From the IMG/VR virus record IMGVR_UViG_3300029812_000105, positions 1-41,044 of that record: a DNA stretch of 41,044 nucleotides. One strand, written 5' to 3'. The DNA comes from a virus. Under the pieces are notes generated by a model, which saw only the letters and a program-made list of their open reading frames with translations, was not told the DNA's origin and ran no database searches. This document shows positions 1,510 through 37,651 of this stretch, piece after piece. Position numbers and translations under genes: made by a program. Position 1 is the first letter of the stretch, and every line of letters begins with the position of its first letter.

Positions 1510-3276
1510 ATGGGTAAACGTGGTCCTAAGCGATTATCAATAGAGCAGTTAGAGAAAAGGGGCAGTTGGTTAGCTGCAAGACGGCAAAAAGACCAACAGA
1601 TGCAGCCGCCGAAAGGACGGAAACGCGAGATTCCGCCGCCGGTAGACCCTGAATCGCTGCTCGAACTTATCAAGACAATCCCCGATTATGACCCGTACAA
1701 GGGGGCCGAGGACTATTACTTCGAGCCGGAGGCGGCTGCCGAAGCCATAGACTTCTTCCAGCAGAAGCTTGCCCATGTCAAGGGCGAGAAGGCGGGCCAG
1801 GCATTTCTGCTTGAGGATTGGGAAAAGGCCATAATCGCCAACCTGTTCGGCTGGCTCAATAAGGTAACGGGTTTTCGGCGGTACAAAGAGGCGTTTATCG
1901 AGGTCGCCCGCAAGAATGGCAAGACGCCGATGGCGGCGGGCATAATCCTGTACCTGCTGTTTATGGACCAGGAGTCGGGTGCGGAGATTTATGGGGCCGC
2001 GAGCGAATACAAGCAGGCTTCGTTGGTCTTTATTCATGCGCAAGGTATGGTGCGGCAGGAGGCCACGCTTGCTGATAATTGCAAGATTTTCAAGGGCCAG
2101 GCCAAGGCCATTGAGGTGGGTGAGCCGGGGGACCCGAACTATGGGGTCTATCGGGTTATAAGTTCCGATTCGCTTAGCGCACACGGATTTAATACGCACG
2201 GGGCGGTTATAGACGAGCTGCATACGCAGCCGGATTCAGAGTTAGTCGATGCGCTGATTACTTCGACGGGAGCAAGACGCCAGCCGTTGATTGTATACAT
2301 AACGACCAGCGACTTCGAGCGGGAAGGGTCGATTTGCAACGAGAAGGAAGATTATGCGTTAAAGGTCAGTAGTGGTATTATCGAAGACCCGACGTTTCTG
2401 CCGGTAGTGTACCAAGCCGATAGGGATGATGACTGGACGAGCGAGGAGGTCTGGAAGAAGGCAAATCCAAATTTAGGTGTTAGTGTATTATTGGACCGTT
2501 TGCAGCGGGCGTGCAAGCAGGCACAAGAAAGTCCGGCCTATGAAAATACATTCAAGCGGCTGCATTTGAATATCCGCACGCAGCAGGATGTTCGCTGGCT
2601 GGGCATGGATAAGTGGGATGCGTGCGATGGGCTTGTTGATGCCGAGGCTTTGGCGGGTGCTGAATGCCTTGGCGGGCTGGATATGTCCACAACGACCGAC
2701 TTATCGGCATTTGTACTGGTATTTCGCGGGGACGGGATGATTTACGTCCTGCCGTACTTCTGGCTGCCGGAGAAGGCGGCTTACAGACGGCACCGCAGGG
2801 ACAAGGTACCTTATCCGTTATGGGTCAAGCAGGGCCATATTCGCACAACCCCCGGCGATGTCATCGACTATGATATTGTGCGAGCGGAAATAAATGAACT
2901 GGGCAAGCGGTATAATATCAAAGAGATTGCCGTGGACCGGTGGAATTCAACGCAGATTATGACGCAGCTCCAAGGCGATGGCTTTGAAATGGTGCCGTTC
3001 GGCCAGGGTTATGCTTCGATGTCGGCACCGAGCAAGGAATTGGAAAAACTGATAATCCAGGGGGGCCTGCAACACGGGGGCCATCCGGTTCTGCGCTGGA
3101 TGGCCTCTAATGTTGCCGCAGAACTCGATGCGGCGGGCAATATCAAGCCGTCGAAGAAAAAGAGCACCGAGCGGATTGACGGCATAGTGTCCCTGATTAT
3201 GGCCATAGGCCGATTGATAGCACAGCCTGAATCGAGACTGAGTATTTACGAGACTCAAGAGCCAATGGTTCTTTGA
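1510..3276 (+). CDS. terL: terminase large subunit
   Basis: The packaging motor ATPase and nuclease, 588 aa from the ATG at 1510; an in-frame TTG at 1501 overlaps the previous gene and is less likely. Residues 132-139 carry the phage-type Walker A (VARKNGKT), about 233-238 the Walker B with catalytic Glu (VIDELH), and about 264-267 an ITTS coupling motif. The C-terminal half has the RNase-H-like nuclease pattern beginning GGLDMS near 388-393 and a later Asp in VDRWNS. Length and motifs fit the HK97-type Terminase_1 family. It is followed by a 70-base hairpin-containing gap and the portal gene, the usual order. Confidence 0.95.
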   Translation: MGKRGPKRLSIEQLEKRGSWLAARRQKDQQMQPPKGRKREIPPPVDPESLLELIKTIPDYDPYKGAEDYYFEPEAAAEAIDFFQQKLAHVKGEKAGQAFLLEDWEKAIIANLFGWLNKVTGFRRYKEAFIEVARKNGKTPMAAGIILYLLFMDQESGAEIYGAASEYKQASLVFIHAQGMVRQEATLADNCKIFKGQAKAIEVGEPGDPNYGVYRVISSDSLSAHGFNTHGAVIDELHTQPDSELVDALITSTGARRQPLIVYITTSDFEREGSICNEKEDYALKVSSGIIEDPTFLPVVYQADRDDDWTSEEVWKKANPNLGVSVLLDRLQRACKQAQESPAYENTFKRLHLNIRTQQDVRWLGMDKWDACDGLVDAEALAGAECLGGLDMSTTTDLSAFVLVFRGDGMIYVLPYFWLPEKAAYRRHRRDKVPYPLWVKQGHIRTTPGDVIDYDIVRAEINELGKRYNIKEIAVDRWNSTQIMTQLQGDGFEMVPFGQGYASMSAPSKELEKLIIQGGLQHGGHPVLRWMASNVAAELDAAGNIKPSKKKSTERIDGIVSLIMAIGRLIAQPESRLSIYETQEPMVL

Positions 3277-3278
3277 GC

Positions 3279-3322
3279 CTGACAATACCCGCCGGCAATC
3301 GGAAGCAAGGGTTGCCGGTCAG
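3279..3322 (+). promoter_or_regulatory. hairpin between terminase and portal genes
   Basis: CCGGCAA (3292-3298) pairs perfectly with TTGCCGG (3312-3318), and outer CTGAC (3279-3283) with GTCAG (3318-3322) can extend it across a bulge. No T-run follows, so an mRNA processing or stability element fits better than a terminator. Confidence 0.5.
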
Positions 3323-3346
3323 ATATACTCACTTTAAGGGGGCAAA

Positions 3347-4999
3347 TTGAAGATTTTAGATACCGTAGCCGGTTGGTTGGGCTATTCCAGCCTGAAGGCG
3401 GCTACGCAGCGCGATAAGACCGGCTGGTTCGTAGAATGGCTACGGGGGGGGATGAAATCCGCCTCCGGCGAGAAAATTAACGAACATACATCGCTCCAAA
3501 TCGCCGCGTTCTACGCCTGTATGCGCAATATCAGCGAAGACGTTGGTAAGCTGCCGTTAAAAATTTACAAAAGCATAAAACCCCGCGGCAAGGAGCCGCA
3601 ATTTGACCATCCGGTATATCGGCTTATTCATGATTCACCGAATCCTGAAATGACGGCAATGACGTTCCGGCAGACCTTGACGGCGCACTGTTTGGGTTGG
3701 GGCAACGGATATGCAGAGATTCAACGTGATATTGCCGGACATCCGGCGGCGTTATGGCCGCTCCGCCCCGACAGGGTGCGGGTATATCGAGTAGACGACG
3801 GTTTGATTTGGTATGAGGTCACTACCGACAACGGCGAGCGGACATGGCTTCGGGCGGATAAAATGCTGCACATTCCCGGACTTGGCTACGATGGATTGCA
3901 GGGCTATAACGTAGTGAAATATGCGAGAGAGTCATTGGGTATAGCAGCGGCGTCACAAAAATTTGCGGGGTCGTTTTTCGGCAATAGTGCAATACCGGGT
4001 GGGGTATTGAGCCATCCGGCGCAATTGACGGACACGGCGAGGGGGAATTTGCGCAGGGCGTTTGAAAAGATGCACAAGGGGGCCGACAACGCTGCGCGAT
4101 TGATGATTCTCGAAGAGGGCCTCAAGTATGACCAGATAACAATGCCGCTCAAAGATGCGCAGTTTATCGAGAGTCGGGAATTTAGTATCCCTGAAATCTG
4201 CCGGTGGTTCCGAATGCCGCCGCACAAGGTACACGATTTATTACGCGCAACTTTTGACAACATCGAACATCAGAGTCTCGAATATGTAACGGATACGCTG
4301 ACGCCGTGGTTTACGCGATGGGAGCAGGAGATTTGGCGCAAGCTGCTGACGCCCGATGAGCAGGAGCAGGGATATTTCGCAAGGCATACCGCCGAAGGAT
4401 TGCTGCGGGGTGATATTAAGACGCGGTACGAGGCATATCGGACGGGCCGGGAATGGGGCTGGCTGAGTGCCGATGACATCCGGGAGCTTGAGGATATGAA
4501 CCCACTGCCGGATGGCCTGGGCGAAGGATATTTGATACCGCTTAATATGCGGGAGGTGGGCGAGGAAGCACCACCGCCGAGGGCGTTGTTGCCGGAGCCA
4601 AAGGAAAAGGCGGTGGCTATGGCGTTTGACGGAAAAGATGACCATATCGGGATGGATGCGATTATCGACGATATGGCGGCGCGACTGGCAAACGCCGAAA
4701 TCCGTGAGGTCGAAAAACACGCAGACCAGGCGAGAGCCGAGCCGGAGGCATTCGGCGAGTGGGTGGAGAAGTTTTACGCCAAACACGCGGGTTATATCAA
4801 AAAGACGCTTGCGCCGCTGAACGAAATGGTCAAAGGCGGCCTGCCGCTCGATGCGATTACAGAGCGATTGACGACCGAAGGTATTGAAGCGTTTATGCAG
4901 GGCAACTTTGACGGCAGCCTTGCGGCATGGAAGGAAATCAGAAAAGATGGTATTGTAATTATGTTGAAAGAGGTAACAAAAAATGCCTTATCCAAATGA
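3347..4999 (+). CDS. portal protein, HK97 family
   Basis: Forms the dodecameric ring at the head vertex through which DNA is packaged. The 550-aa product has the family's N-terminal pattern (AAFYACMRNISEDVGKLPL, about residues 52-70), the mid-protein LMILEEGLKY region and the clip region ending near residue 400. An acidic C-terminal extension of roughly 130 residues follows. The start is TTG, supported by AAGGGGG ending 4 bases upstream; no better ATG is near. The 3' end overlaps the protease gene by 17 bases. Part of the gene is duplicated at about 830-1035. Confidence 0.93.
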   Translation: MKILDTVAGWLGYSSLKAATQRDKTGWFVEWLRGGMKSASGEKINEHTSLQIAAFYACMRNISEDVGKLPLKIYKSIKPRGKEPQFDHPVYRLIHDSPNPEMTAMTFRQTLTAHCLGWGNGYAEIQRDIAGHPAALWPLRPDRVRVYRVDDGLIWYEVTTDNGERTWLRADKMLHIPGLGYDGLQGYNVVKYARESLGIAAASQKFAGSFFGNSAIPGGVLSHPAQLTDTARGNLRRAFEKMHKGADNAARLMILEEGLKYDQITMPLKDAQFIESREFSIPEICRWFRMPPHKVHDLLRATFDNIEHQSLEYVTDTLTPWFTRWEQEIWRKLLTPDEQEQGYFARHTAEGLLRGDIKTRYEAYRTGREWGWLSADDIRELEDMNPLPDGLGEGYLIPLNMREVGEEAPPPRALLPEPKEKAVAMAFDGKDDHIGMDAIIDDMAARLANAEIREVEKHADQARAEPEAFGEWVEKFYAKHAGYIKKTLAPLNEMVKGGLPLDAITERLTTEGIEAFMQGNFDGSLAAWKEIRKDGIVIMLKEVTKNALSK

Positions 5000-6083
5000 A
5001 CACGCATGTCGGTTGCGTAATCCTAAAGATTTTCAGGCCGATAGTTTCAGACGGGATGAAAGAGAGCATGACGGCAAAAAGTACGGCGTGATTTTCGGCA
5101 GATTAAAGGGTAAGACCGCGATAACCGAGCAGGCTTATCGTTACAACAAAAAGACCTGGACGGCGGCGGAAGCCAAGTCACACTGTGCCGAGCACAAGGG
5201 CAAATTTGAGGCGGCAGCCAAAGAGCAGGCTGTGAGCATTCTGCCGAATGTATGGGGCAGGATATGGGCGATAATACCGGAAACGCTACGGGAAATGGCT
5301 GCATCGTTGGCCGAACAACAGCATGAGCTGGTTGGTGCGACCGCGAGACCGTCGCAGGAGTATAGCAAGATTGCGATATTGCCGCTTTGGGGGGTAATCA
5401 ATCACAAACCGAGTCTTTTGAGTATGCTGTTTGGTGGGACATCACTTGAGGGATTTGGTGCATACTTTCGTGCTGCGGTTAGTGACCCGACCGTAAAGGC
5501 GATTGTGCTGGATGTTGATAGTCCGGGCGGTGAGGTTGCAGGCACACACGAAATGGCAAGGGAGATTTTCGCCGCCAGGAGCACAAAACCGATTTATGCT
5601 ATGGTAAATACGCTGTCGGCGTCGGCGGCGTATTGGATTTCGGCGGCGGCGGATAAAATCTGGATGACGCCGAGCGGCTTGGCAGGTTCTATTGGCGTAT
5701 ATGCTCTTCATGAAGACAAGAGCGGCGCGGATGAAAAGGGGGGAATTAAACATACGATAATTAAGGCCGGCAAATATAAAGAAGAAGCAAATCCATTTGA
5801 GCCTTTGAGTGATGATGCAAAAGCGGCGCTGCAACAAATGGCAGATGATGCTTACGATATGATGACGGCGGATATTGCTGAGTTTCGGGGCGTGTCGCAG
5901 CGTAAAATACAGAACGGTTACGGTGAAGGCCGTGTTTTGGGTGCGAAGCGCGCGCTCAATGCGGGCATGGTGGATAAGATTGCGACTTCGGCGGAGTTGA
6001 TGCGCTATATGGCGCGCCGAGTCGATAAACCGCGAACGAGAACAAAGAGGGCTGAGCTGGACAGACAAAGGCAGGTTTTGTGA
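4983..6083 (+). CDS. prohead protease, S49 (SppA/ClpP-like) family with N-terminal extension
   Basis: Processes the prohead during head maturation. Residues 1-80 form a basic domain (MPYPNEHACRLR, then GKTAITEQAYRY) that I recall at the front of various phage head proteins. Residues about 130-345 are an S49 serine-protease fold: SPGG at 180-183, probable nucleophile Ser214 in SASAAYW, and the general-base Lys in AGKYKEE (264 or 266). Position between portal and capsid agrees. The ATG lies inside the portal 3' end, so translation is probably coupled. No separate scaffold gene is visible; the capsid delta-like domain may serve. Confidence 0.88.
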   Translation: MPYPNEHACRLRNPKDFQADSFRRDEREHDGKKYGVIFGRLKGKTAITEQAYRYNKKTWTAAEAKSHCAEHKGKFEAAAKEQAVSILPNVWGRIWAIIPETLREMAASLAEQQHELVGATARPSQEYSKIAILPLWGVINHKPSLLSMLFGGTSLEGFGAYFRAAVSDPTVKAIVLDVDSPGGEVAGTHEMAREIFAARSTKPIYAMVNTLSASAAYWISAAADKIWMTPSGLAGSIGVYALHEDKSGADEKGGIKHTIIKAGKYKEEANPFEPLSDDAKAALQQMADDAYDMMTADIAEFRGVSQRKIQNGYGEGRVLGAKRALNAGMVDKIATSAELMRYMARRVDKPRTRTKRAELDRQRQVL

Positions 6084-6161
6084 CAGTAAAAGCCGCAAAG
6101 CGGAAGCAGCGGCGAGTAGCTGATTGATATATCGTAAAGTAAAAGATTGTTAATTTTTGTG

Positions 6162-6184
6162 GACCGCTTCAGGCGGTCTTTTTT
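6162..6184 (+). terminator. intrinsic terminator before the capsid gene
   Basis: GACCGC (6162-6167), five-base loop TTCAG, GCGGTC (6173-6178), then six T. Textbook form. It lies only 16 bases before the capsid ATG with no room for a promoter between, so it is more likely an attenuator, antitermination target or 5'-stabilising hairpin than a full stop. The flanking gap 6084-6200 also contains a GATATATC palindrome and a weak TTGATA promoter-like stretch. Confidence 0.75.
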
Positions 6185-6200
6185 ATTGGGGGGCCAATAA

Positions 6201-7595
6201 ATGCTTATATTACAAGGATTCAAAGACAAGAAGACGGCCCTTGTAGCGGATATGGATGTTATTTTGAAGACCGCTGCCGATGAAAACAGGGACATCACCG
6301 AAGATGAGCAGGCGCGATTCGATGAGCTAAACGCGGAATGCGATGTGCTCAACGGCAAAATCACGACCCGCGAAACCCTGCTCAGACGGCAGCAGGAAGT
6401 CAAAGAGCAGGCCACGCTTCCGCTTATGGACCGCAAGATTTCGCCCGACCAGGTAGCTCATACCGAGCCGCTGAAAATCGAGGTGGACAAAGTAACGATT
6501 CCGGCCACCGTAAAACGCTGGGGTTCTTTGAAGTCTTTCAAAGGGGCCGATGCGGACGTGCGGGCGTATAAGGCCGGACAATTTTACTTCGCAATGTTCG
6601 GAAATGAGAAGGCGAAGCAATGGTGCGCCGAGCACGGTTTGATGGCAGCCGTTCATCAGGAGAACATAAACACAAAGGGTGGATACCTCGTTTATGACCA
6701 GTTGGACAACGACATCATCGACCTGCGCAAAGAGTACGGCGTCTTCGAGCGACTTGCCAGAACGGTGGCAATGACGAGTGATACTATTCTGCGTCCGCGA
6801 AGAACGGGCGGACTTACCGCTACCTTTTTCGGCGAAGACACCGCTATCACTGAGAGCGACAAGGGCTGGGACCAGGTACAGCTGATTGCCAAGAAGCTCG
6901 GCGTAATCGCTCGTATCACAAATGAGCTTACCGAGGATGCGATTATCAACATTGCCGATGACCTTACCGGCGAAATCGCATACGCGTTCGCCAAGAAAAT
7001 CGACGAATGTGGCTTTGCCGGCGACGGCTCTGCAACCTACGGCGGTATGGTCGGTGTGCGGCAGGCGCTAAGCGACGTCAACGGCGTCAATGACGGCGGT
7101 GGACTCGTTTTGGTCTCCGCCGCCGGCGGAAATTACCTTGACCCGACCCTTGCCGAACTCAACAAGCTCATCAGTATTTGTCCGAGCTACGCAAGAAGAG
7201 GGGCTGTGTGGTGCTGCTCGCCTCTGGTTTACGACCAGGTCATTGCCAGACTCGCACAGGCCGCAGGCGGCAATACCGTCAGAGATATTATCGACGGTGT
7301 GCCGACTGAAAAGGCGCTCGGTTATCCGGTCGTTATGGCCGAGGCGATGCCATCAACAGAAGCGGTCAGTCAGATTTGCATTCTGTTCGGTAATTTCGCG
7401 CAGGCCGCCGACTTCGGCGACCGTCGCCGGACCACGATTGCGCAAAGTGATAGCGCTGTTGTTGGCAGTAAATCGGTGTTCGAGCGGGATGAAATCGCAG
7501 TACGAGGAACCATCCGGTTCGACATAAACGTTCACGATGTCGGCACGGCCACCGTACCTGGTCCCGTTGTCGGCTTAATCCTGGCTGCTGCATAA
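6201..7595 (+). CDS. major capsid protein, HK97 fold
   Basis: The 464-aa precursor has a charged helical N-terminal region (about 1-105, rich in Glu/Lys, DITEDEQARFDELNAE) like the HK97 delta domain, normally removed by the prohead protease. The coat domain contains the family segments GGYLVYDQ, IIDLRKEYGVFERLAR and AFAKKIDECGFAGDG. A GGGGGG Shine-Dalgarno precedes the ATG. It is preceded by a terminator-like hairpin and followed 21 bases later by a small head gene. Length and context match the Phage_capsid family. Confidence 0.94.
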   Translation: MLILQGFKDKKTALVADMDVILKTAADENRDITEDEQARFDELNAECDVLNGKITTRETLLRRQQEVKEQATLPLMDRKISPDQVAHTEPLKIEVDKVTIPATVKRWGSLKSFKGADADVRAYKAGQFYFAMFGNEKAKQWCAEHGLMAAVHQENINTKGGYLVYDQLDNDIIDLRKEYGVFERLARTVAMTSDTILRPRRTGGLTATFFGEDTAITESDKGWDQVQLIAKKLGVIARITNELTEDAIINIADDLTGEIAYAFAKKIDECGFAGDGSATYGGMVGVRQALSDVNGVNDGGGLVLVSAAGGNYLDPTLAELNKLISICPSYARRGAVWCCSPLVYDQVIARLAQAAGGNTVRDIIDGVPTEKALGYPVVMAEAMPSTEAVSQICILFGNFAQAADFGDRRRTTIAQSDSAVVGSKSVFERDEIAVRGTIRFDINVHDVGTATVPGPVVGLILAAA

Positions 7596-7616
7596 GCCAT
7601 CGAAAGGGGGTAAATT

Positions 7617-8111
7617 ATGTTACATGTAGACCAATGCGGCGTATGCGTTATGCCGCCTGAGACCACCGCTACCAACGCGACCCATTTGATGGTTTTCGAC
7701 ACCAAAGGATTTGACCGCGCGAATGTGTACCTTGGAATGGCAACGCACGTTACGTCTTTGGCGACACTTAGCACACTGAAATTCACCGAGGGCACAAACA
7801 CCGCTTGCAGCGATGCGATTGTCGCCTTGACGGGCGGCACGTCCGTTGTCGCTGATTCTACGGGCTTTGTGATTCCAACTGCGGCGAAAATGGGAATCGG
7901 CGATATGGTTGAGTTCCAAATCGACCTGAAAGCGCGCAAGCGATATATGAAGCTCAGCGTAACGCCGGGCGACACGACCGCACGGGAAAGCTACGGCATA
8001 GCTTTACTTTCCCGCCCCGGTCAGTCGAAAGATACGGCAGTAAAGAAGTACGTCAAAAACTACGGAGATGCGACCAATTCCACAAGTGTCGCACTTTTAG
8101 TTTCCGGCTAA
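7617..8111 (+). CDS. probable head decoration or minor head protein
   Basis: A 164-aa protein with beta-rich sequence (VTSLATLSTLKF, FVIPTAAKMGIGDMVEFQI), preceded by AAAGGGGGT. Directly downstream of a capsid gene is the usual place for a capsid-stabilising decoration protein, and the size fits, but I do not recognise the family. The enzyme cassette follows after a GC-rich hairpin. Confidence 0.6.
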   Translation: MLHVDQCGVCVMPPETTATNATHLMVFDTKGFDRANVYLGMATHVTSLATLSTLKFTEGTNTACSDAIVALTGGTSVVADSTGFVIPTAAKMGIGDMVEFQIDLKARKRYMKLSVTPGDTTARESYGIALLSRPGQSKDTAVKKYVKNYGDATNSTSVALLVSG

Positions 8112-8142
8112 CGCTTCACTGCCTGGAACGTCCTTTCACTTC

Positions 8143-8172
8143 GGCGGGTTCGGGCTGCGGCCCGGCCCGTCG
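8143..8172 (+). promoter_or_regulatory. strong GC-rich hairpin before the enzyme cassette
   Basis: GGCGGGTTCGGGC (8143-8155) pairs with GCCCGGCCCGTC (8160-8171) around loop TGCG, with a mismatch and wobble pairs. No T-run follows. It separates the head genes from the inserted cassette and may set relative expression or protect mRNA ends. Confidence 0.55.
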
Positions 8173-8216
8173 AGGTAAAAGGGCCAATTAAACCTGTTGA
8201 GTGAAAGGAATGTATT

Positions 8217-8861
8217 ATGATTTTATGGATTGCCGGCTGGCCGCAAAACGGAAGTACCTTGCTGCGGCAGATTATCAGGGACTGTTTTGATATTCCGCCT
8301 TACTCGAAATATACGGAGCCGGAGTTGGAATTTCTTTTTGGCAGTGAGGTCTTGAAATTTGGCATAGGATGGCGAGATGCATCGTTTGAACAGTATTGTC
8401 GCTGCCATAACAGCAATAAGCTCTTTGTAATCAAAACACACGAAATACCGATTGACGACAGTCCTGCGATATTTATCGTTCGTGACGGGCGCGATGCCGT
8501 AACTGCGCTGTGCCGATTCTGGACTATTCCAATTGCCAGTGCGATTGTCGGTCAATCATGCGTTTTCGGCGGCTGGTCGGATTATTACCGTGCCTGGCAG
8601 CCGAAGAAGCGGCCTAAGACCATCCTCGTTCGGTTTGAGGATATGATTGAAGACCCGAATATGATAGCGCGTGACATTGCGCCGATGCTGGGGTGCGAGC
8701 CGAAGCGGCCTTATGTTGATGACTACGAGGAAAAAGGAAAAAGCTGGCCGCAGTTATTCAACGGTCGCACCGGAATTTGGCGGGAAGATATGACGGAAAA
8801 AGATTTGGAACTGTTCTGGCGATGTCATGGTGAAGTGATGGCCGAGCTGGGTTACGAGTGA
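8217..8861 (+). CDS. sulfotransferase (PAPS-dependent type)
   Basis: Predicted to move a sulfo group from PAPS to a hydroxyl or amine acceptor. The 214-aa protein starts with the 5'-phosphosulfate-binding loop GWPQNGSTLL (residues 7-16). KTHEIP (73-78) matches the KTHLP segment that carries the catalytic Lys and His of cytosolic sulfotransferases. FIVRDGRDAVTA (86-97) matches the 3'-phosphate-binding segment, and FNGRTGIWRE (181-190) the C-terminal PAPS-binding region. It is shorter than typical sulfotransferases but has all core motifs. A GTGAAAGGA ribosome site precedes it, shared by the next two genes. Sulfotransferases are rare in phage head operons; the acceptor is unknown. Confidence 0.82.
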   Translation: MILWIAGWPQNGSTLLRQIIRDCFDIPPYSKYTEPELEFLFGSEVLKFGIGWRDASFEQYCRCHNSNKLFVIKTHEIPIDDSPAIFIVRDGRDAVTALCRFWTIPIASAIVGQSCVFGGWSDYYRAWQPKKRPKTILVRFEDMIEDPNMIARDIAPMLGCEPKRPYVDDYEEKGKSWPQLFNGRTGIWREDMTEKDLELFWRCHGEVMAELGYE

Positions 8862-8872
8862 AAGGATGCGAA

Positions 8873-9544
8873 ATGAAATACTCATTAGTTGTGGGGCGCT
8901 TTCAGCCCTTGCACGATGGCCATAGGGCCCTGATACAAAGGTTAATTGATGAGGGCAAGCACGTTGCGGTCGGACTGATGGAAACTGACAGGGACGATAA
9001 AAACCCGCTGTCGGCCATTGGCCGCATGGCGCTAATCCACAAAGCCTTCGGCGACAAGGTACATGTGGTCATTATGCCGCCCATCGGCGAAATCTGTTTT
9101 GGTCGGCGGCCCGGCTACAAGGTAAGACGGATTTATCACGGGCCGGATACGGAGCGACTTTCCGCCAGTGCAATTCGCGGCGATGGCGATGAAATCGAGT
9201 CTGTTTACGACCCGGACTTCATAGAGGCTTTTAACCGGATTGCGGACAAGGTTCACAAAACCAGCTGCCGGCAGGGCTTCTGGCGGGCCGGCGACAAGCG
9301 CAACAAGGGCGAGGTGCTCGCGGAATTGCACAATGAAATCAGCGAGGCCCTTGAATGCCTGCGAGAAGGCAACCCGCCGGATAAGAACATAACGAGCATG
9401 AGTGGCGGCGAGGTTCAGTTGGCGGATGTGTTAATACTGCTGATGGATATTGCAAAGGGCTACGGTTTCAACATTGCCGAGGCCGCGCTGGCGAAAATGA
9501 AGTTTAACGAAGGTCGGGCATATATGCACGACAAGCAGTTTTGA
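8873..9544 (+). CDS. HxGH nucleotidyltransferase fused to a MazG-like pyrophosphohydrolase
   Basis: A two-domain 223-aa protein. Residues 1-115 form a cytidylyltransferase-like domain: GRFQPLHDGH with HxGH at 14-17, and SASAIRG at 97-103 equivalent to the ISxxxIR motif of NMN adenylyltransferases. Residues about 140-223 resemble small MazG-type NTP pyrophosphohydrolases: ELHNEISEAL, then ADVLILLMDIA, then a C-terminal KMKFNEGRAYMHDKQF. I chose ATG 8873 over GTG 8858 because GTGAAAGGA is then a correctly spaced ribosome site. The gene overlaps the sulfotransferase stop through its Shine-Dalgarno. NAD metabolism or nucleotide-sugar activation are both possible. Confidence 0.8.
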   Translation: MKYSLVVGRFQPLHDGHRALIQRLIDEGKHVAVGLMETDRDDKNPLSAIGRMALIHKAFGDKVHVVIMPPIGEICFGRRPGYKVRRIYHGPDTERLSASAIRGDGDEIESVYDPDFIEAFNRIADKVHKTSCRQGFWRAGDKRNKGEVLAELHNEISEALECLREGNPPDKNITSMSGGEVQLADVLILLMDIAKGYGFNIAEAALAKMKFNEGRAYMHDKQF

Positions 9545-9563
9545 TAAGTGAAAGGAAATATCA

Positions 9564-10790
9564 ATGATTAAGTTGAATCTGGGTGCGGGCGATACGGTCA
9601 TCGACGGATATATGCCCATTGACCGTAAGTTCGGGCAGGAAGTTTTTCCGCTGCCGGGCAAGTATGTTGAAAACTCGGTAGATGAGATACGCGCCAGTCA
9701 TGTTTTCGAGCATTTTCCGTATCGGCAGTGCTTTGATGTTTTGAAACACTGGGTATCACGGCTGAAGCCTGGCGGCATAATTAAACTCGCCGTGCCGGAT
9801 TTTCGCAGGATTATCGAGCCTTATGCTCGTGGTGAAAAGACCAATGTGCTCGGTTATCTGTTCGGTGGACAGATTGACGAGAATGATTTTCACAAGGCGA
9901 CTTTTGATAAGACTAGTCTGAGTGATTTGATGACGGCGGCGGGTCTGCGGGATTTGACCGAGTGGAAATCGGAAGTAAACGACTGCGCCGCCCTGCCGGT
10001 CAGTCTGAACATTCAGGGCAGAAAACCGCTCGAAGGCGAGGCGGCGAATCCGATACCCAATGCCGAGCAGACGAATATTGCGGCGGTAATGTCAATGCCG
10101 CGACTGGCGTTTACAGATAACCTGTTCAGCGCAATCAAGGCGATTATACCGTTGGGCATTCCGCTGGACCGTGGGTGCGGGGTATTTTGGGGCCATGTTC
10201 TTACCCGGCAGATAGAGAAACACCTCAGCGACGGCACCGAATGGATTCTGGTAGTTGATTACGATACGTGGTTTACGAAGAACCATGTTATCAGGATGTG
10301 TCAGTTAATGGCTGAGAACGCACAGATTGACGCCTTGTGCCCCGTACAGTGCAAGCGGGAAGAAGATTTGCCGCTGATTGGCGTCAGCGGCCCGGCCAAC
10401 GCCGAAGGTGAAGTGAAGGGTCTTGTTGCTGATTTTCAAAAACCGCTTTACGAAGTCTGCACCGCACATTTCGGCCTGACGTTGATTCGCGTATCGGCGA
10501 TGAAGAGGATGTCAAAGCCGTGGTTCCTGCCGGTGCCGGACCCGACCGGCGGCTGGGGCAAGGGCAGGCAGGACGAAGATATTTACTTCTGGAACAACTT
10601 CAGACGTTCCGGCTGCCGTGTTTTTCAGGCAAACGAGGTCTTCATAGGCCACATGCAACAGGTGTGTACGTTTAGCGGGCTGCCGCAGGATAACTGGCGG
10701 CCAATACACGTTTATATGAACGATTTGATTGACAAAGGCCCGCCGCCGCACGGCGAGCCGAAAGTTGAAATGTTGAAACAGGGGGCATAA
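9564..10790 (+). CDS. methyltransferase-glycosyltransferase fusion
   Basis: A 408-aa fusion. Residues 1-150 are a class I SAM methyltransferase (LNLGAGD at 4-10, HVFEHF at 46-51, LKPGGIIKLAVPDF at 67-80). From about 175 a GT-A-type glycosyltransferase-like domain follows with a DYD metal motif at 232-234 (LVVDYDTWF) and DEDIYFW near 337. The order fits an enzyme that both glycosylates and methylates a sugar or protein target. GTGAAAGGA precedes the ATG and the stop abuts the next ATG. Third gene of the cassette with the sulfotransferase. Confidence 0.82.
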   Translation: MIKLNLGAGDTVIDGYMPIDRKFGQEVFPLPGKYVENSVDEIRASHVFEHFPYRQCFDVLKHWVSRLKPGGIIKLAVPDFRRIIEPYARGEKTNVLGYLFGGQIDENDFHKATFDKTSLSDLMTAAGLRDLTEWKSEVNDCAALPVSLNIQGRKPLEGEAANPIPNAEQTNIAAVMSMPRLAFTDNLFSAIKAIIPLGIPLDRGCGVFWGHVLTRQIEKHLSDGTEWILVVDYDTWFTKNHVIRMCQLMAENAQIDALCPVQCKREEDLPLIGVSGPANAEGEVKGLVADFQKPLYEVCTAHFGLTLIRVSAMKRMSKPWFLPVPDPTGGWGKGRQDEDIYFWNNFRRSGCRVFQANEVFIGHMQQVCTFSGLPQDNWRPIHVYMNDLIDKGPPPHGEPKVEMLKQGA

Positions 10791-11288
10791 ATGGCAAGTC
10801 AATTAAAAGGCGACATTCACGTCGAAGGTTCGCTGACAGCGACGACTTTGGGCATACCATCCGGTACGGTTGTTAATGACGATGTTGCCGCCGCTGCTGC
10901 AATCGCGGCGTCAAAATTGCAGCATCAATACGAAAAGGTCTATTCGCAGGAAAGCGCGACTAGCGCCGCCGATGAGGCGAGGGTGGCCCATGTTGTTCAG
11001 GGTGCAACGGGAACCATCGAGGGATTCGAGGCCGGTTCGGTTGTGGCTGCTGTCGGTGATGATACCTGTGATGTGGATTTGCTCAAGAACGGCACGACGG
11101 TATTGAACGCGGCGATAACGCTCGATTCGACTAACGTTGCTTATACCGTCGAGGCGGGAACCGTCGGCACGAGCGCCGTCGTTGACGGCGATGTTCTTGA
11201 AATCAAGATTGATGCAACACACAATACGGGCACATTGGCGAAGGGTATATTTGCCTGCGTTAAAATCAGAGAGGATGCCGACGCATAA
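10791..11288 (+). CDS. virion structural protein, unknown role
   Basis: A 165-aa Ala/Val/Thr-rich protein with beta-strand character (SLTATTLG, VVAAVGDDTCDVDLLKNG, AITLDSTNVAYTVEAGTVG). The ATG follows the previous stop without a gap and its own end overlaps the connector start. The DLLKNGTTVLNAAI segment resembles a repeated small beta-domain seen in phage head or fibre proteins. Likely a head or neck component; decoration protein is the alternative. Confidence 0.55.
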   Translation: MASQLKGDIHVEGSLTATTLGIPSGTVVNDDVAAAAAIAASKLQHQYEKVYSQESATSAADEARVAHVVQGATGTIEGFEAGSVVAAVGDDTCDVDLLKNGTTVLNAAITLDSTNVAYTVEAGTVGTSAVVDGDVLEIKIDATHNTGTLAKGIFACVKIREDADA

Positions 11289-12091
11289 TGGATTACAGTT
11301 ATTTGCGAATAGCTACAGGGCCGGTGGTTGAGCCTGTTTATCTGGATGCGGCGAAGGACCATCTGCGCGTGACGGGAACGGACGACGATACGCTGATTAC
11401 TAATCTGATTCGCGCTGCGAGGCAATTCTGCGAGGCGTACCAGGGCCGGTCTTTCGTGGTGCGGACGTATGAAATGGCATTCGACAATGAGTTTTCAGAG
11501 ATAATATACCCACCGTTCGGGCCGCTCGTTTCGGTCAGTTCAATTACCTACGTTGATACCGATGGGACCACGCAGACGGCGAGCACGAGTGTTTATACCG
11601 TTGACAGCTATGCCGAGCCGCCGCGCATCTTTGAGGCATACAATCAGGTATGGCCTTCGGGCGTGCGAGGCGTTGAGAATGCTGTCAAGATGACATTTAT
11701 AGCTGGTTATGCCGCGAGTTTTACAGCAGCAGCCGATACGGACATTCTGACCGTATCCGGCAGGACATATACCGACGCCGATATTGTGCGGCTTAGTAAC
11801 AGCGGCGGCGCGTTACCGGAGGGCCTGGCGGCCAATACCGACTATCACGTGCGGGACGTATCAGGCCAGACGTTGAAACTGGCGGCAACGGCGGATGGAG
11901 CGGCTATTGATATTACCGGCGCCGGAACCGGGACACACTTCATAGGCGAGATACCACAGAATGTCATTGCAGCAATTAAACTGGTTCTCGGCCATTTATA
12001 CGAGCACCGTGAGGATGTGACGGAGGTAAAACTCGACGGCATACCGCTCGGCGCAAAGATGCTGTTGCAGCAGGAAAGAGCGAACTGGTGA
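11288..12091 (+). CDS. head-tail connector (HK97 gp6-like) with inserted beta domain
   Basis: The adaptor ring under the portal. N-terminal VYLDAAKDHLRVTGTDDDTLI (in two parts of the first 40 residues) and ARQFCEAYQGRSF are typical of the gp6-like connector family, as is the C-terminal helix NVIAAIKLVLGHLYEHREDV. Between the expected FIAGY and IPQNV elements lies an extra segment of about 78 residues (DILTVSGRTYTDADIVRLS, ALPEGLAANTDYHVRDV, TGAGTGTHF), which looks like a beta-sandwich module found in other phage tail and fibre proteins. At 267 aa it is clearly longer than the usual connector. Confidence 0.85.
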   Translation: MDYSYLRIATGPVVEPVYLDAAKDHLRVTGTDDDTLITNLIRAARQFCEAYQGRSFVVRTYEMAFDNEFSEIIYPPFGPLVSVSSITYVDTDGTTQTASTSVYTVDSYAEPPRIFEAYNQVWPSGVRGVENAVKMTFIAGYAASFTAAADTDILTVSGRTYTDADIVRLSNSGGALPEGLAANTDYHVRDVSGQTLKLAATADGAAIDITGAGTGTHFIGEIPQNVIAAIKLVLGHLYEHREDVTEVKLDGIPLGAKMLLQQERANW

Positions 12092-13394: not shown

Positions 13395-13579
13395 TGGACC
13401 TGAATCAAATTATGAGCAAGAAGCTCGGCGTTGTTACGGCGACCATTGTTAGTCTGGTGTTACTTGTTAAAGAGCAGCCGGAAATCGCCGGCCAGGTCGC
13501 GTGGCATCTGACAGTTATCGTTATCAGTTATATTCTAATCCAGGGAGTGATTGATTTGCGAAAAGGAGATAATTCCTGA
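13394..13579 (+). CDS. small two-helix membrane protein, holin candidate
   Basis: 61 aa with two hydrophobic helices (about 12-24, GVVTATIVSLVLL, and 35-52, WHLTVIVISYILIQGVI) and a short charged C-terminus (DLRKGDNS). Size and topology fit a class II-type holin. Start overlaps the previous stop and the stop overlaps the fibre start. No endolysin is adjacent, so the lysis role is only inferred. Confidence 0.6.
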   Translation: MDLNQIMSKKLGVVTATIVSLVLLVKEQPEIAGQVAWHLTVIVISYILIQGVIDLRKGDNS

Positions 13580-14814
13580 TGAAAAAGATATTGATTCTGT
13601 TTGTATGTTTGGTTTGCCTGCTGATTATGGCCGCCGCCCATCCCCCGGCCCCATTCCACAATGACAACCTGTGGCGGATTTACGACAACGGCGACGTCAC
13701 CAAAAGGGTTGCATTTGAGGTCGATGGGGTTTCTACCGGCACGACGCGGACGATTACAATGGCCGATGCAGATGTGGACTTGGGTAGCCCGGCATTTGAA
13801 GATATAACAACAAGACATGATTTAATACTTACGGGTGGACTTGATGCAGATGTTGTTTTCAAAGATGGGGAAACATTAAGGGCAAATATAGGTATACATA
13901 CAGCTAATCATTTAGAGATAACTTCACAAACTGGTACTGTAACTTTTTTAGCTAATAATATTTATACTTCGGGTGATATAAGTTGTGATGATTTAACTGC
14001 CACCGGTGATATTAAATGTGAGCAGCTTACCCTTAGTGAGACGACTCAGGATTATTTATTTACTAAATTGGGTTATGCAACAACCCAACTTGTTTTGCAA
14101 TCTCAAACAGCAACAGAACCTTGTAATTTACATTTCTTTGGTAAAACTGGTGACGGCAGTGAAGCTGTGATGATTAGATTTTGGGCAAAAAGCATACCTG
14201 CCGATTATACTAATTATGAAAGTTTCACATTCGGATATGTTCCTGGGGAAACACCAAGATATGAATTGTACAGTGCCCAACACGGAGAAGGAGTTATCCG
14301 TCCAATACATATCTGGACCGAGGGCAATACCAACCAGTTCGTAGCCGAGAACGATGGTGATATTTTGATGGCTACCATACCCGGTCTTTCCGGCAAAACG
14401 GCAATGGTCATTGATACCGCTACTCATCAGGTGGGCTATGATTCGTCCTCTTTGGTTTACAAGAAGAATATCCGCAACATTGAAGATGCAAACAGTTGCA
14501 GAATTTACGGCCTTCGCCCCATCATTTACGACTGCAAGGACGATTCAAGCAAGGGCATTTATGGCCTTGTGGCGGAAGAGGTCAACGAGGTAATGCCGGA
14601 AATCGTCCGGTATCGAGTTGACCCTGTGCGAGCAGTCCGCAAGGGTGAGTTCGGCGAGGATGAGTCTTATATCGCCGAATGGAAACAGACCAACATACCG
14701 GACGGCGTCGAGTACAACAGGCTTTGGGCGCCGATGCTCAAGGAAATGCAGAAACTAAGAGCGGAAGTGAATGAATTGCAAGCGAGAATAACAAAGTTAG
14801 AGAGCCGAAAGTAA
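13579..14814 (+). CDS. fibre protein with C-terminal S74 intramolecular chaperone
   Basis: A 411-aa protein. The C-terminal 120 residues are a peptidase-S74 chaperone that trimerises and self-cleaves: SSLVYKKNI (290-298) matches the Ser...Lys site of the consensus SDxxxKxNI, followed by GLRPIIYDCK, GIYGLVAEEVNEVMPEIV and a terminal coiled coil. Ser290 and Lys295 are the likely dyad. The N-terminus (MKKILILFVCLVCLLIMAAA) is a signal-peptide-like hydrophobic segment, unexpected for a virion fibre. Bases about 13800-14330 are visibly more AT-rich than the surroundings, suggesting that the receptor-facing part was acquired by exchange. AAAGGAG lies upstream. Confidence 0.82.
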   Translation: MKKILILFVCLVCLLIMAAAHPPAPFHNDNLWRIYDNGDVTKRVAFEVDGVSTGTTRTITMADADVDLGSPAFEDITTRHDLILTGGLDADVVFKDGETLRANIGIHTANHLEITSQTGTVTFLANNIYTSGDISCDDLTATGDIKCEQLTLSETTQDYLFTKLGYATTQLVLQSQTATEPCNLHFFGKTGDGSEAVMIRFWAKSIPADYTNYESFTFGYVPGETPRYELYSAQHGEGVIRPIHIWTEGNTNQFVAENDGDILMATIPGLSGKTAMVIDTATHQVGYDSSSLVYKKNIRNIEDANSCRIYGLRPIIYDCKDDSSKGIYGLVAEEVNEVMPEIVRYRVDPVRAVRKGEFGEDESYIAEWKQTNIPDGVEYNRLWAPMLKEMQKLRAEVNELQARITKLESRK

Positions 14815-15765: not shown

Positions 15766-16203
15766 ATGAGTGACGCTATAGGTGGGTATGGGACAGTATT
15801 AAAGGTGAGGGACGGCACGAATGCCTACACAACTATCGGCAACATCCAGAGCATCGATGGGCCGAACCAGGGCCGCAACTCGATTGATGTTTCGACGATG
15901 GAAAGCACGAGCCGGTTTCGGGAGTTTTTACCCGGAATGCTGGACGCAGGCGAATTGACGTGCGAGATGAACTACGATGGTACAGCGGCGGGCACGGCGA
16001 ATGCATTGCAGACAATTTACGCATCGACGTCAACAGCGCTGGAATGGCACATCGCATTTAACGATGGGACAACGCCGTCAAGTTTCGCCTGCATCGGCCA
16101 CGTTACCGCTTTGGGCTTTGCGGTTCCGTCGTTTGACGACAAGGTATCGCAATCGCTGTCCGTCAAGCTGACGGGCGTGCCGACTTACACCGACCTTACA
16201 TAA
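15766..16203 (+). CDS. major tail tube protein, first copy
   Basis: 145 aa, preceded by TGGGGGTAAC. Shows the lambda-V/TP901-type tube pattern with IGNIQSIDGPNQGRNSIDVS, a MESTSRFREFLPG segment, GELTCEMNYDG and a C-terminal GFAVPSFDDKVSQSLSVKLT. Polymerises to form the tail tube. A second, closely related copy follows 28 bases downstream; the two share a 41-base identical block (15862-15902 and 16343-16383). Confidence 0.88.
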   Translation: MSDAIGGYGTVLKVRDGTNAYTTIGNIQSIDGPNQGRNSIDVSTMESTSRFREFLPGMLDAGELTCEMNYDGTAAGTANALQTIYASTSTALEWHIAFNDGTTPSSFACIGHVTALGFAVPSFDDKVSQSLSVKLTGVPTYTDLT

Positions 16204-16231
16204 AAATTTCAATGAATGGGGGCCAATAATT

Positions 16232-16687
16232 ATGAGTGATTCAGTAAACGGGTATGGGACAACCCTGAAGGTGAGGAGCGCAACCGCTTCAACCAGTTCC
16301 TCGAATTACACATCGGTCGGTAATATCCAGAGTATTGACGGTCCGAACCAGGGCCGCAACTCGATTGATGTTTCGACGATGGAGAGCACGAGTCGATTTC
16401 GGGAGTTTCTGCCGGGGGCGTTAGACGCAGGCGAATTGACGTGCGAGATGAATTATGATGGTACGGCGGTGGGTACGGCAGATGCGATGAATACGCTGTA
16501 CGCATCGACGGCGACGAACTGGGAATGGACTATACAGTTTAACGACCATACTTCAACGCCGTCGAAATTCGCATCTATCGGGCATCTTACAGCGCTTGGT
16601 TTTGCGGTTCCGTCGTTTGACGACAAAGTTTCGCAGTCGTTAAGTTTGAAACTGACCGGTGTACCGACGTACGCGGACATTGGCTAA
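16232..16687 (+). CDS. major tail tube protein, second copy
   Basis: 151 aa, near-duplicate of the preceding gene; most of the difference lies in the first 35 residues (an insertion ATASTSSSNYTS) and the region around residue 100 (NTLYASTATNWEW). The same GGGG-type ribosome site precedes the ATG. Both reading frames are intact, so both products are probably made. They may copolymerise or one may be a minor tube or cap ring. Confidence 0.88.
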   Translation: MSDSVNGYGTTLKVRSATASTSSSNYTSVGNIQSIDGPNQGRNSIDVSTMESTSRFREFLPGALDAGELTCEMNYDGTAVGTADAMNTLYASTATNWEWTIQFNDHTSTPSKFASIGHLTALGFAVPSFDDKVSQSLSLKLTGVPTYADIG

Positions 16688-20337: not shown

Positions 20338-21690
20338 ATGCTGCAATATCTAACACACGGCGCAACACCTGTTGTTTCAAAAGTCAATGAAATCATCGAC
20401 CAGTTAAACCGTCTATCCAGCCCGCTCGGTTCGGCGGGCGTCCAGCTTAACCAGACGCTTCTCGGCAGGGGTCTTGCCGTTAGTCCTGCACAACTCAATC
20501 CGCGCTGGCCGAAACTCGGTTTTGGAGGCAGTACCGGTGTAACGCCCATTGCTTGGTACCTGTTCAATCACAACGCAAAGGACGCCTCCGGCAACGACCG
20601 CGATGGCACATTCGGCGGCGATATGAACGCCGACAAAGATGTGGCCCAGTTCGACGGCAGCGATGATTACGTCGATTGCGGCGCGGATTTTCTCGGCACA
20701 GGCGCAATTAGTATAAGTTTCTGGCACAATCCCTTGTGTGCCGGCGGAGAATATATCTTTGACAATGGCCAGTTTCAGGTCAAAATCGCCGCGTCGCCGT
20801 TTGCAGAAATCACCGTATCGTCGGATGGCGGCACTACAGTAGCCAGCGCAACTTTGAGTTTTACTAACAAAGAGTGGCAGCACTTCGCTATCACCCGCGC
20901 TGCCGACGGCAAGGTTTCGACCTGGCTAAATGATGTGCTCAAAATTGACGATGTTTCATCGGGCACGCCCGGCGACCCCGGCTCAAATCATCTGCGCATA
21001 GGTTCCAGCTTGGGTGGGGCCTCGTTTTATGAGGGCTTGATGCACGATGTGCGCATTTATGGCGAGGTTATCACCGAGGAAAAACGCTTAGAACTATACG
21101 AGGTAGGCAATAAGCGATACTTGTGGGGCGATAATATAATTAAGACTGCCACGCTTTTTCGCGTAAATGACGTGGCAACGGGCGACGGCGTTTACAACTG
21201 CCATCCCTGCCTGATTGATGCGAGCGACTGGGCCGATACGGACGGGGCCGACCGCTTCGCAAATTACGGCAGCACGGTCGAGGTTCTGAATCTGCTCGAA
21301 GGCTACGTCGAGTCTGATTATACTCGCGGCCTCGCGCGGTACGATAAAATGTACGCCTGGCTGGCTCTGGACGATGAGGGCAATATGCGCTGGGTCGGTT
21401 ATCCGCTTGTGCCATCGCCGAGGATGTTCCGGACTACCGAGGCGGCGACGGCCAATGACCACATTACCTGCAATGCTATAACGTACAGCGGGGGCGAAGC
21501 CGGCTCTCTTGATATACTTTACAACGTCGAGGTCTATGCTAAAATTTGCAACGGCACCGCTTTGAACGCCGCCGCCCCGCGTCTGGCAAGCGGCGACTAT
21601 CTTTTCGCCCATCACGAACGCGGCAAGTGGTGGTGTACAACGGTATTTGATACCGATACAGAAGATTGTGATTGTTATACGGCCCCCTAA
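20338..21690 (+). CDS. tail protein with LamG/concanavalin-like domain
   Basis: 450 aa. Residues about 66-260 form a LamG-type jelly roll: AWYLFNHNAKDASGNDRDGT, VAQFDGSDDYVDCG, ISISFWHNP, EWQHFAITRAADGKVSTWLN, and GLMHDVRIYGEVITEEKRLE. Such domains usually bind glycans or proteins, so this is a strong candidate receptor-binding or tail-tip adhesin. The N-terminal 65 residues presumably attach to the tail and the C-terminal 190 are Cys-containing and end in a DTDTEDCDCYTAP tail. Located where lambda-like phages keep tip genes. Confidence 0.78.
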   Translation: MLQYLTHGATPVVSKVNEIIDQLNRLSSPLGSAGVQLNQTLLGRGLAVSPAQLNPRWPKLGFGGSTGVTPIAWYLFNHNAKDASGNDRDGTFGGDMNADKDVAQFDGSDDYVDCGADFLGTGAISISFWHNPLCAGGEYIFDNGQFQVKIAASPFAEITVSSDGGTTVASATLSFTNKEWQHFAITRAADGKVSTWLNDVLKIDDVSSGTPGDPGSNHLRIGSSLGGASFYEGLMHDVRIYGEVITEEKRLELYEVGNKRYLWGDNIIKTATLFRVNDVATGDGVYNCHPCLIDASDWADTDGADRFANYGSTVEVLNLLEGYVESDYTRGLARYDKMYAWLALDDEGNMRWVGYPLVPSPRMFRTTEAATANDHITCNAITYSGGEAGSLDILYNVEVYAKICNGTALNAAAPRLASGDYLFAHHERGKWWCTTVFDTDTEDCDCYTAP

Positions 21691-22919: not shown

Positions 22920-23088
22920 AGATATTTGGGGGGACGGCGAACCCGAAAAGCCCAACGGGCTTGGTTTTTATCGCTGCAAGAACCACCCTGAGCACATCGG
23001 CGTTGTGGATTTAGGGCTGGATGCCCCGAACCGCTACCCCTGCCGGGAATGCTACAAAATCATCCTGCAAAACCGCCTCAAAAAGTAG
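22900..23088 (+). CDS. small zinc-finger-like protein
   Basis: 62 aa with CKNHPEH and CREC, a possible Cys/His zinc site in the last two-thirds. It starts inside the preceding gene. Directly downstream is a strong promoter, so this gene probably ends the late operon. Function unknown. Confidence 0.5.
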   Translation: MDAKPVEDIWGDGEPEKPNGLGFYRCKNHPEHIGVVDLGLDAPNRYPCRECYKIILQNRLKK

Positions 23089-23129
23089 AAACTCGCCCAT
23101 TTATAACGCCTGTCCCGGCAATTTTTCCC

Positions 23130-23157
23130 TTGACAGACCAAAGGCTTCTGCTATAAT
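23130..23157 (+). promoter_or_regulatory. perfect sigma70 promoter
   Basis: -35 TTGACA (23130-23135) and -10 TATAAT (23152-23157), both full consensus, 16-bp spacing. Predicted start of transcription is near 23164, which coincides with the first ATG of the prepilin-like gene (23165), so the mRNA would be leaderless or nearly so. Confidence 0.8.
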
Positions 23158-23164
23158 TAGTAAT

Positions 23165-23944
23165 ATGATGAAAACAAAACACGGCATTTCACTTATCGAG
23201 ACGATAATTGTCGTCGCGGGCGTGGCGCTGCTTGCTTATCTGGCCGTACCCGCCAGCCGTGCGCTGATGCGGTCGTTTGACTCGCCGGCCAGTGTAAAGA
23301 CCCTGATAAGCGGTGCGATGGCTTCTGCCCGGGCCATCGCCGCGAGAGAGCATCACTATGCCGGAATACGATTCCAGAAAGTTTTTGACTATGAAAATCC
23401 TATTAAGACGGCGCAATACATGATATTTATTGTTCACGACCCGAACCTGGCGCCTCCAACGCCTCCAGGACAGGAAGATTTCAGATTGTTCTGTCGCGCT
23501 GTCGATGGTATTGAGCCTATCAGACTGCCCGATTCGGTCGGTGTGATGGATGTCAGCGATATCAGTGAGGTATCAGGTGAGGAGAACGTAGCCGTGAACG
23601 GTCCGTTCGAGAACGCTACTACGTTTTCTATTCTCTTTTCACCTGCGGGAAAATTGGTTCGCCATACAGTAAATGTTCAGCGAGCAGACATCAACGATGT
23701 AGTGTTTAACGGATTTCGTGCCGTGCGTGATGGAGATGCAATGTTTTTCGAGGACGGGTTCTTACCGCCGCCGTATCAGCCGAATGACGAAATGAGTCGT
23801 GCGAGTTTTGTTATCTACGACAGCAGACGATTTGAGCAGTTACATCAGCAGGGCCGGACATATTCTGGATATCTTCAAGAATTCATTCGCCGCGAAACGA
23901 TTTATATCAATCGTTACATGGGAACGATGATTTCAAGGGACTAA
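23165..23944 (+). CDS. prepilin-like protein with N-methylation segment
   Basis: 259 aa. Residues 7-30 (GISLIETIIVVAGVALLAYLA) match the type IV pilin / type II secretion pseudopilin leader: cleavage after Gly7, Glu at mature position 5, then a hydrophobic helix, followed by a globular domain of GspH-like size. Pseudopilins build periplasmic filaments. The gene has its own consensus promoter, and no Shine-Dalgarno. I place the start at ATG 23165 (or 23168) because the pilin leader needs it. It is not a phage structural family and is most likely a host-derived moron expressed in the lysogen. Confidence 0.75.
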   Translation: MMKTKHGISLIETIIVVAGVALLAYLAVPASRALMRSFDSPASVKTLISGAMASARAIAAREHHYAGIRFQKVFDYENPIKTAQYMIFIVHDPNLAPPTPPGQEDFRLFCRAVDGIEPIRLPDSVGVMDVSDISEVSGEENVAVNGPFENATTFSILFSPAGKLVRHTVNVQRADINDVVFNGFRAVRDGDAMFFEDGFLPPPYQPNDEMSRASFVIYDSRRFEQLHQQGRTYSGYLQEFIRRETIYINRYMGTMISRD

Positions 23945-37379: not shown

Positions 37380-37651
37380 TGGGAAGTCACATAAGTTTTG
37401 CAAAACCCGATATGGTTTGGCTCAGGCGATATGATTGCCCGACCTGTGGTAAAAAAAGGTTTTTTATGGGCTGGCATCAGGAGTGGTACGGCTCAATCTT
37501 TACCTGCCTGAAATGCGGTGAGAGATTTTCCGATGATGAAATGCTGCCTCGGCCATTCTGTCCTCGATGGCGGCAAGACAACATCGCAGGGGCGAAAAAG
37601 TTTTATCGAAAACATAGACATTTACTCAAACAAGGAGGGCTATGGGAATGA
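37379..37651 (+). CDS. zinc-ribbon protein
   Basis: 90 aa. CPTCGKKR and CLKCGERF, 21 residues apart, form a classic zinc ribbon. The ATG overlaps the methyltransferase stop (TAATG) and the 3' end overlaps the next gene. Might act with the flanking modification or nucleotidyltransferase genes. Confidence 0.65.
   Translation: MGSHISFAKPDMVWLRRYDCPTCGKKRFFMGWHQEWYGSIFTCLKCGERFSDDEMLPRPFCPRWRQDNIAGAKKFYRKHRHLLKQGGLWE

Follow-up and report, generated by a model that had tools for sequence, protein, structure and literature searches.

The window analysed here spans a complete virus record (41,044 bases). It encodes a head module of the HK97 type with terminase, portal, protease and capsid genes, and in addition an integrase, RecT, an exonuclease and a RuvC-like protein. 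Behind the capsid gene lie three enzyme genes, whose coordinates, strand and order are those given in an earlier note on this DNA. The features of the region are the following.

6201..7595, plus strand: major capsid protein of the HK97 type, on which the conserved array is anchored (Phage_capsid, E 3.7e-36; phrog_10)
7617..8111, plus strand: decoration/cement-like protein of 164 aa, predicted beta sandwich
8112..8216, plus strand: RNA stem-loop between the decoration gene and the first enzyme gene, which could sequester the ribosome site of the latter
8131..8139, plus strand: anti-Shine-Dalgarno arm TCCTTTCAC, the exact complement of 8201-8209
8201..8209, plus strand: ribosome site GTGAAAGGA of the sulfotransferase gene
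8217..8861, plus strand: PAPS-dependent sulfotransferase, ST (Sulfotransfer_1, E 2.6e-9)
8873..9544, plus strand: compact NMNAT-like nucleotidyltransferase (residues 1-105) fused to a MazG-like domain (residues 110-223), NT-MazG
9564..10790, plus strand: fusion of a methyltransferase (residues 1-160) and a GT-A glycosyltransferase (residues 170-395), MTGT
10791..11288, plus strand: small protein of 165 aa without assigned function, between MTGT and the connector
11288..12091, plus strand: head-tail connector, which borders the cassette downstream (Phage_connect_1, E 2.7e-10)

The trio had been described as lying between the decoration gene and the connector. This placement stands, except that the cassette is separated from the connector by the gene of the 165-aa protein, which has no family match and whose homologue in the related locus L013 is 66% identical and equally placed. 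The common ribosome site claimed for the three enzyme genes was also found, since GTGAAAGGA is located 6-8 bases ahead of each start codon. It occurs five times in the window, compared to 0.46 expected copies. One of these, on the minus strand at 8131-8139, is the complement able to pair with the first (ST) site. The start codon of NT-MazG is probably the ATG at 8873, while the GTG at 8858 belongs to the ribosome site.

Several further features were observed in the window. A GC-rich imperfect tandem repeat of TGGCxxGGCA-like units is located upstream of the terminase gene (541-648). A 113-aa ORF, likewise upstream of the terminase gene (740-1081), matches the portal family (E 2.3e-13), and positions 863-1026 share 80% identity with 3998-4161 of the genuine portal gene; judged from these similarities, the ORF is a decayed portal duplicate. 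Two tandem major-tail-protein-like genes (15766-16687) share DNA blocks of 73-79% identity, and the same duplication is present in L013. The head-tail region encodes a protein ending in a Peptidase_S74 (endosialidase chaperone) domain (13579-14814), and the tail region a protein with a Laminin_G_3 (concanavalin-like) domain (20338-21690), a possible glycan binder. An ORF at 23021-23944 carries a prepilin-like segment (GISLIETIIVVAGVALLAYLAVPA), which is unusual for a phage, and has no Pfam match. In the early region, an RlaP-type nucleotidyltransferase (RNA repair, PF10127, E 1.6e-18) is encoded at 37642-38424.

Enzymes of the cassette and the decoration-like protein

The motifs named in the earlier note were recovered, namely the PAPS loop and KTH of ST, HDGH and SASAIR of NT-MazG, and the SAM-type GxG and the DYD of MTGT; the 3'-phosphate motif of ST was recovered with an alanine at R+8, where a serine is usual. 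The PAPS loop of ST reads WPQNGSTLLR, in which P9, G12, L15 and R17 are invariant in 13 sequences. The lysine and histidine of the catalytic K73-T-H75 and R89 of the 3'-phosphate motif RDGRDAVTA are likewise invariant among the 13 relatives. Residue R+8 is a serine in most copies and an alanine in the window, L013 and L009. The relatives were recovered by alignment-based searches, although a single-protein scan of viral contigs had found none, and their profile reaches animal SULT chains in the PDB (E 7e-5). ST shares the PAPS loop, KTH and RDG motif with the cytosolic PAPS sulfotransferases (SULT; PF00685), but it is short (214 aa) and belongs to a distinct subfamily of viruses that is linked to MTGT. 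Sulfotransferases without a known role have been reported earlier in phages (PMC10580990).

The nucleotidyltransferase domain of NT-MazG matches CTP_transf_like (E 1.2e-7) and carries HDGH and SASAIR, which places it among the HxGH nucleotidyltransferases. The motifs GRFQPLHDGH and SASAIR resemble those of archaeal-type NMN adenylyltransferase and phage cytidyltransferases. In contrast to the archaeal-type enzyme, the domain comprises only about 105 residues, is fused to MazG and scores far below the NMNAT cut-offs (34.7 bits against the NMN adenylyltransferase family, curated cut-off 127). The MazG part has a PHROG match (3.6e-20). It shares the core and the ExxE half-motif with the NTP pyrophosphohydrolases MazG, MazZ and RS21-C6, but the ExxD half-motif reads QxxD in all nine cassette copies, with a glutamine where RS21-C6 and MazZ carry a metal-ligand glutamate. 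Since one canonical metal ligand is replaced, it appears doubtful from the residues that the cassette MazG is active as a pyrophosphohydrolase.

MTGT gives weak matches in single-sequence searches. Across the family, a methyltransferase PHROG is matched by 76 of 78 members and Glyco_trans_2_3 by 17. An AlphaFold model computed from 78 sequences (pLDDT 93.7) confidently predicts two domains, a class I methyltransferase and, C-terminal to it, a GT-A domain, and the motifs did not fail in this structural modelling. The N-terminal LNLGAGD (GxG) contains the invariant G7, and methyltransferase structures match this part. D232-Y-D234 (DxD) and the C-terminal H363 are invariant in the 78 sequences. 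On the basis of the model, MTGT can firmly be assigned as a methyltransferase and GT-A fusion. In a structure search of the PDB, A197 of STIV was matched with a TM of 0.66, together with LH3, mimivirus R699, B4GALNT1, GlfT2 and SpsA. A197 is believed to attach glycans to the coat protein of STIV (PMC10551542). It shares the viral GT-A fold with MTGT but has no methyltransferase domain, and it belongs to an archaeal virus with another capsid type.

The label of a decoration protein for the product of 7617..8111 is drawn from the position of the gene, the conservation of the family and a weak fold match, and not from a database name. The AlphaFold model (pLDDT 81) is nearly all beta, and the BPP-1 jellyroll cement protein ranks first among its PDB matches (3j4u_H, E 1.7e-3, TM about 0.5), which is suggestive of a decoration or cement role. 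The decoration protein shows no enrichment of N-X-S/T sequons (132 compared to 137 expected).

Distribution, partners and fusions

When IMG/VR was scanned with MTGT, at least 451 matches in viruses were obtained, of which 80 were kept for study. Of the 74 nonredundant loci selected by MTGT alone, 67 have an HK97-type capsid gene ahead of MTGT on the same strand; of the seven exceptions, some start at or near a contig end. With the loci picked by capsid and by ST added, the capsid-MTGT array is present in 92 of 99 loci. The distance between the two genes is 0.37-3.2 kb with a median of about 0.6 kb, and does not exceed 0.86 kb in 68 of the 92. In all 86 loci checked, the capsid gene is followed immediately by a decoration homologue, which precedes MTGT; such a homologue is still present in 18 of 19 loci without MTGT. 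MTGT and capsid distances are correlated (Mantel r 0.44, p 5e-4, permutation maximum 0.17). Among capsid-picked loci with enough downstream sequence, MTGT was found in 35 of 58; since about 40% do without it, the modification appears to be dispensable. At the corresponding site, the capsid relatives without MTGT encode mostly connectors, and a search for other glycan enzymes there gave no clear families. A GT8-like gene in L223 adjoins a partial MTGT.

Outside of viral contigs MTGT is rare. Five full-length matches were obtained in 84,980 species genomes, most of them beside relatives of the capsid or ST, and in one phylum that yielded such a match only 1 of 392 genomes was positive. The fusion was not found in cultured phages by sequence search. 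Phycisphaerae are a tentative host candidate: one MAG of this group contains the trio, on a short contig (5.5 kb), and a second MTGT piece.

The check proposed in the earlier note, a search of relatives for the trio at one site, had a positive outcome. About ten independent contigs share ST, MazG and MTGT in this position (the window, L012, L013, L025, L041, L028/L096, L097, L100, L103 and L272), and the MTGT core is present in most relatives. Scattering of the three genes among the relatives, which the earlier note had named as a refuting outcome, was not observed. The NT domain is missing in L028/L096 and L097 and apparently in L272. MazG without NT in L028/L096 and L097 indicates that the partner which regularly accompanies ST is MazG rather than NT. 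MazG was found only where ST is present (8/6/0/85 loci, p 1.8e-8). Conversely, of 20 loci picked by ST alone, some of them near-duplicates, 18 contain MTGT and 17 show the same-strand capsid and decoration context. MTGT is the core of the cassette, to which the ST-MazG pair is an add-on.

In L031, ST and MTGT form one protein. An FkbM methyltransferase is joined to the N-terminus of other MTGTs or sits between their two domains. L003 encodes a GDP-mannose dehydratase within the head module, in the interval from portal to capsid. Cellular relatives of the MTGT methyltransferase domain adjoin GDP-mannose dehydratase and GT41 genes. Together with an epimerase found in one contig, these fusions and neighbours indicate sugar chemistry.

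Two related arrangements were observed in addition. In L010 (10001-11956) and L011 (3858-5813), an MTGT relative with an inserted FkbM-like domain lies directly behind an 897-aa portal-like gene of a different head module. On a 68-kb contig (L099/L272, 885-5484), an MTGT relative, two STs, MazG, FkbM and the epimerase mentioned above are clustered.

The RNA element in front of the first enzyme gene

The 105-base gap before ST folds far more stably than shuffled sequences (z -4.1). The predicted energies of the states with closed and open ribosome site are nearly equal (-45.1 and -43.1 kcal/mol). In relatives, the gaps that separate the decoration gene from the first enzyme gene, be it ST or MTGT, behave likewise, with z < -3 in 47 of 61 and a median of -4.15, and 25 of 56 contain a complement to the ribosome site of at least 7 bases. 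The arm fits the site of its own locus better than those of other loci (mean 6.77 compared to 4.58, p 5e-5), so both sides have changed together. Examples of pairs which changed jointly are CCTTTATC/GATAAAGG, CTTCCATTCGAG/CTCGAATGGAAG and CCTTGTTCATCA/TGATGAACAAGG. The hairpin is absent where only a few bases separate the decoration gene from MTGT, and the stretch behind the decoration gene in loci without MTGT shows weaker folding (median z -2.6).

That any intergenic gap would show such a hairpin is contradicted by 118 control intergenic gaps of the same contigs, which on average gave no such signal (median z -0.5; own 4.34, cross 4.24). A mere terminator was also rejected, since a scan for terminator-like sites gave none in the gap and the anti-Shine-Dalgarno match covaries. 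No Rfam match was obtained in 5900-11400. The simplest use of the hairpin would be to hold down translation of the enzymes on the capsid mRNA.

Proposed function and competing readings

The locus probably encodes a late-expressed virion-modification cassette which would attach a methylated and sometimes also sulfated glycan to a head protein and in which translation of the enzymes would be limited by RNA. Gene identities, position, co-occurrence, fusions, predicted folds and the covariation of the RNA are results of this analysis; the sugar, its methyl and sulfate groups, its acceptor and the direction of the RNA control are putative. Points against this reading are the sequon count of the decoration protein, the decoration homologues in loci without MTGT, the replaced metal ligand of MazG, the capsid-picked loci that do without MTGT, and the negative search for the fusion in cultured phages. 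A phage-encoded glycosyltransferase tied to virion genes, which characterizes virion glycosylation systems, is found here. We infer that MTGT would move a sugar from a host nucleotide-sugar onto a new head protein or onto a sugar already attached to it. The acceptor would most likely be the neighbouring decoration protein, or else the capsid protein; it could instead be DNA, a lipid or a host glycan. The N-terminal domain of MTGT may O-methylate the transferred sugar, and in the window phage ST may sulfate the same glycan with host PAPS. NT-MazG probably serves the ST branch and could supply or clear an activated nucleotide. By pairing with the ribosome site of the first enzyme gene, the stem-loop would keep the enzymes at catalytic amounts, while the same mRNA would give the hundreds of capsid proteins required per particle.

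The earlier note had proposed modification of either the virion or the host surface, with a methylated, sulfated glycan as product. Position and co-occurrence strengthen this proposal in part; the product is a putative one. The fixed position in the head operon and the restriction to viruses favour the virion. Addition of methyl or sulfate groups to an envelope glycan, by which superinfection would be blocked or receptors altered as in serotype-converting prophages, is unlikely. The cassette enzymes show no membrane segments in sequence and sit in the head operon across dozens of divergent phages, whereas conversion genes are usually located at the prophage edge together with membrane partners. 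It speaks for a role at the host surface that the window phage may be temperate, as it encodes an integrase, that hosts with sulfated envelopes exist, and that the cellular methyltransferase relatives stand beside GDP-mannose dehydratase and glycosyltransferase genes. Even less probable is that these are ordinary auxiliary ('moron') genes of unrelated functions, which happen to be tolerated between the head genes. The insertion site does take extra genes and many capsid relatives lack the cassette genes, but this reading, which we regard as very improbable, has to be set against the identical family order across divergent phages, the ST-MazG association, the ST-MTGT and FkbM-MTGT fusions, the co-divergence of MTGT with the capsid and the dedicated RNA element.

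Glycosyltransferase, methyltransferase, ST and NT-MazG might also decorate the bases of phage DNA. DNA-hypermodifying viral glycosyltransferases are known (Pyle et al. 2024, cited in PMC12619734), the MazG-like MazZ is among the matches of the cassette MazG, and nucleotide sulfation was proposed in a metagenome paper (PMC10829341). However, the cassette adjoins the capsid gene, and the best solved glycosyltransferase relatives of MTGT act on proteins, glycans or lipids. Among the early-region proteins scanned, a subset of the ORFs, no thymidylate-synthase-like, hydroxymethylase or TET/JBP family was found; the families seen were only RecT, exonuclease, RuvC-like resolvase, replication initiation protein and a DNA N6/N4 methylase. 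Hypermodification of DNA or nucleotides is improbable, slightly more so than a role at the host surface.

Glycosylation of phage virions by itself is already known. Excerpts on mycobacteriophages describe how these tailed phages put glycans on capsid and tail proteins with their own glycosyltransferases (PMC12363180, PMC11256854), with capsid or tail-tube glycosylation in Che8 (gp110), Corndog (gp38) and Myrna (Freeman et al. 2023, via PMC12363180, PMC11256854). In contrast to the window, the glycosyltransferase genes of the related phage Maravista are located near the 3' end of the genome and not behind the capsid gene, and these excerpts mention no sulfotransferase or methyltransferase-glycosyltransferase fusion. 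For the sulfating branch, the capsid-fixed fusion and the RNA lock, no description was found in the searchable literature, most subscription journals lying outside of it.

A wider generalization, which we put forward tentatively and at somewhat less than even chance, is that a large uncultured group of HK97-type phages bears a methylated, in some lineages sulfated, virion glycan produced by the cassette of the capsid operon, and sets the enzyme dose by a conserved, covarying RNA lock on the ribosome site of the first enzyme gene. If true, one system would combine sulfation of the virion surface with an RNA element new to phages. A sulfated or methylated capsid would alter particle charge, adhesion to surfaces and recognition. 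ST is tied by position, association and fusion to a capsid-locked glycosyltransferase, which makes the role of phage sulfotransferases testable on virion proteins. Similarly, the RNA element offers a testable case of post-transcriptional control of virion-modifying enzymes in dozens of phages.

A further cluster was observed in L279, a phage without a detectable relative of the capsid family of the window. Downstream of its probable coat gene, genes for a sulfotransferase-2-like protein, for an MTGT-like methyltransferase, for proteins resembling glycosyltransferases and for a PAPS sulfotransferase are lined up (1905-6750), possibly an independent gathering of the same chemistry.
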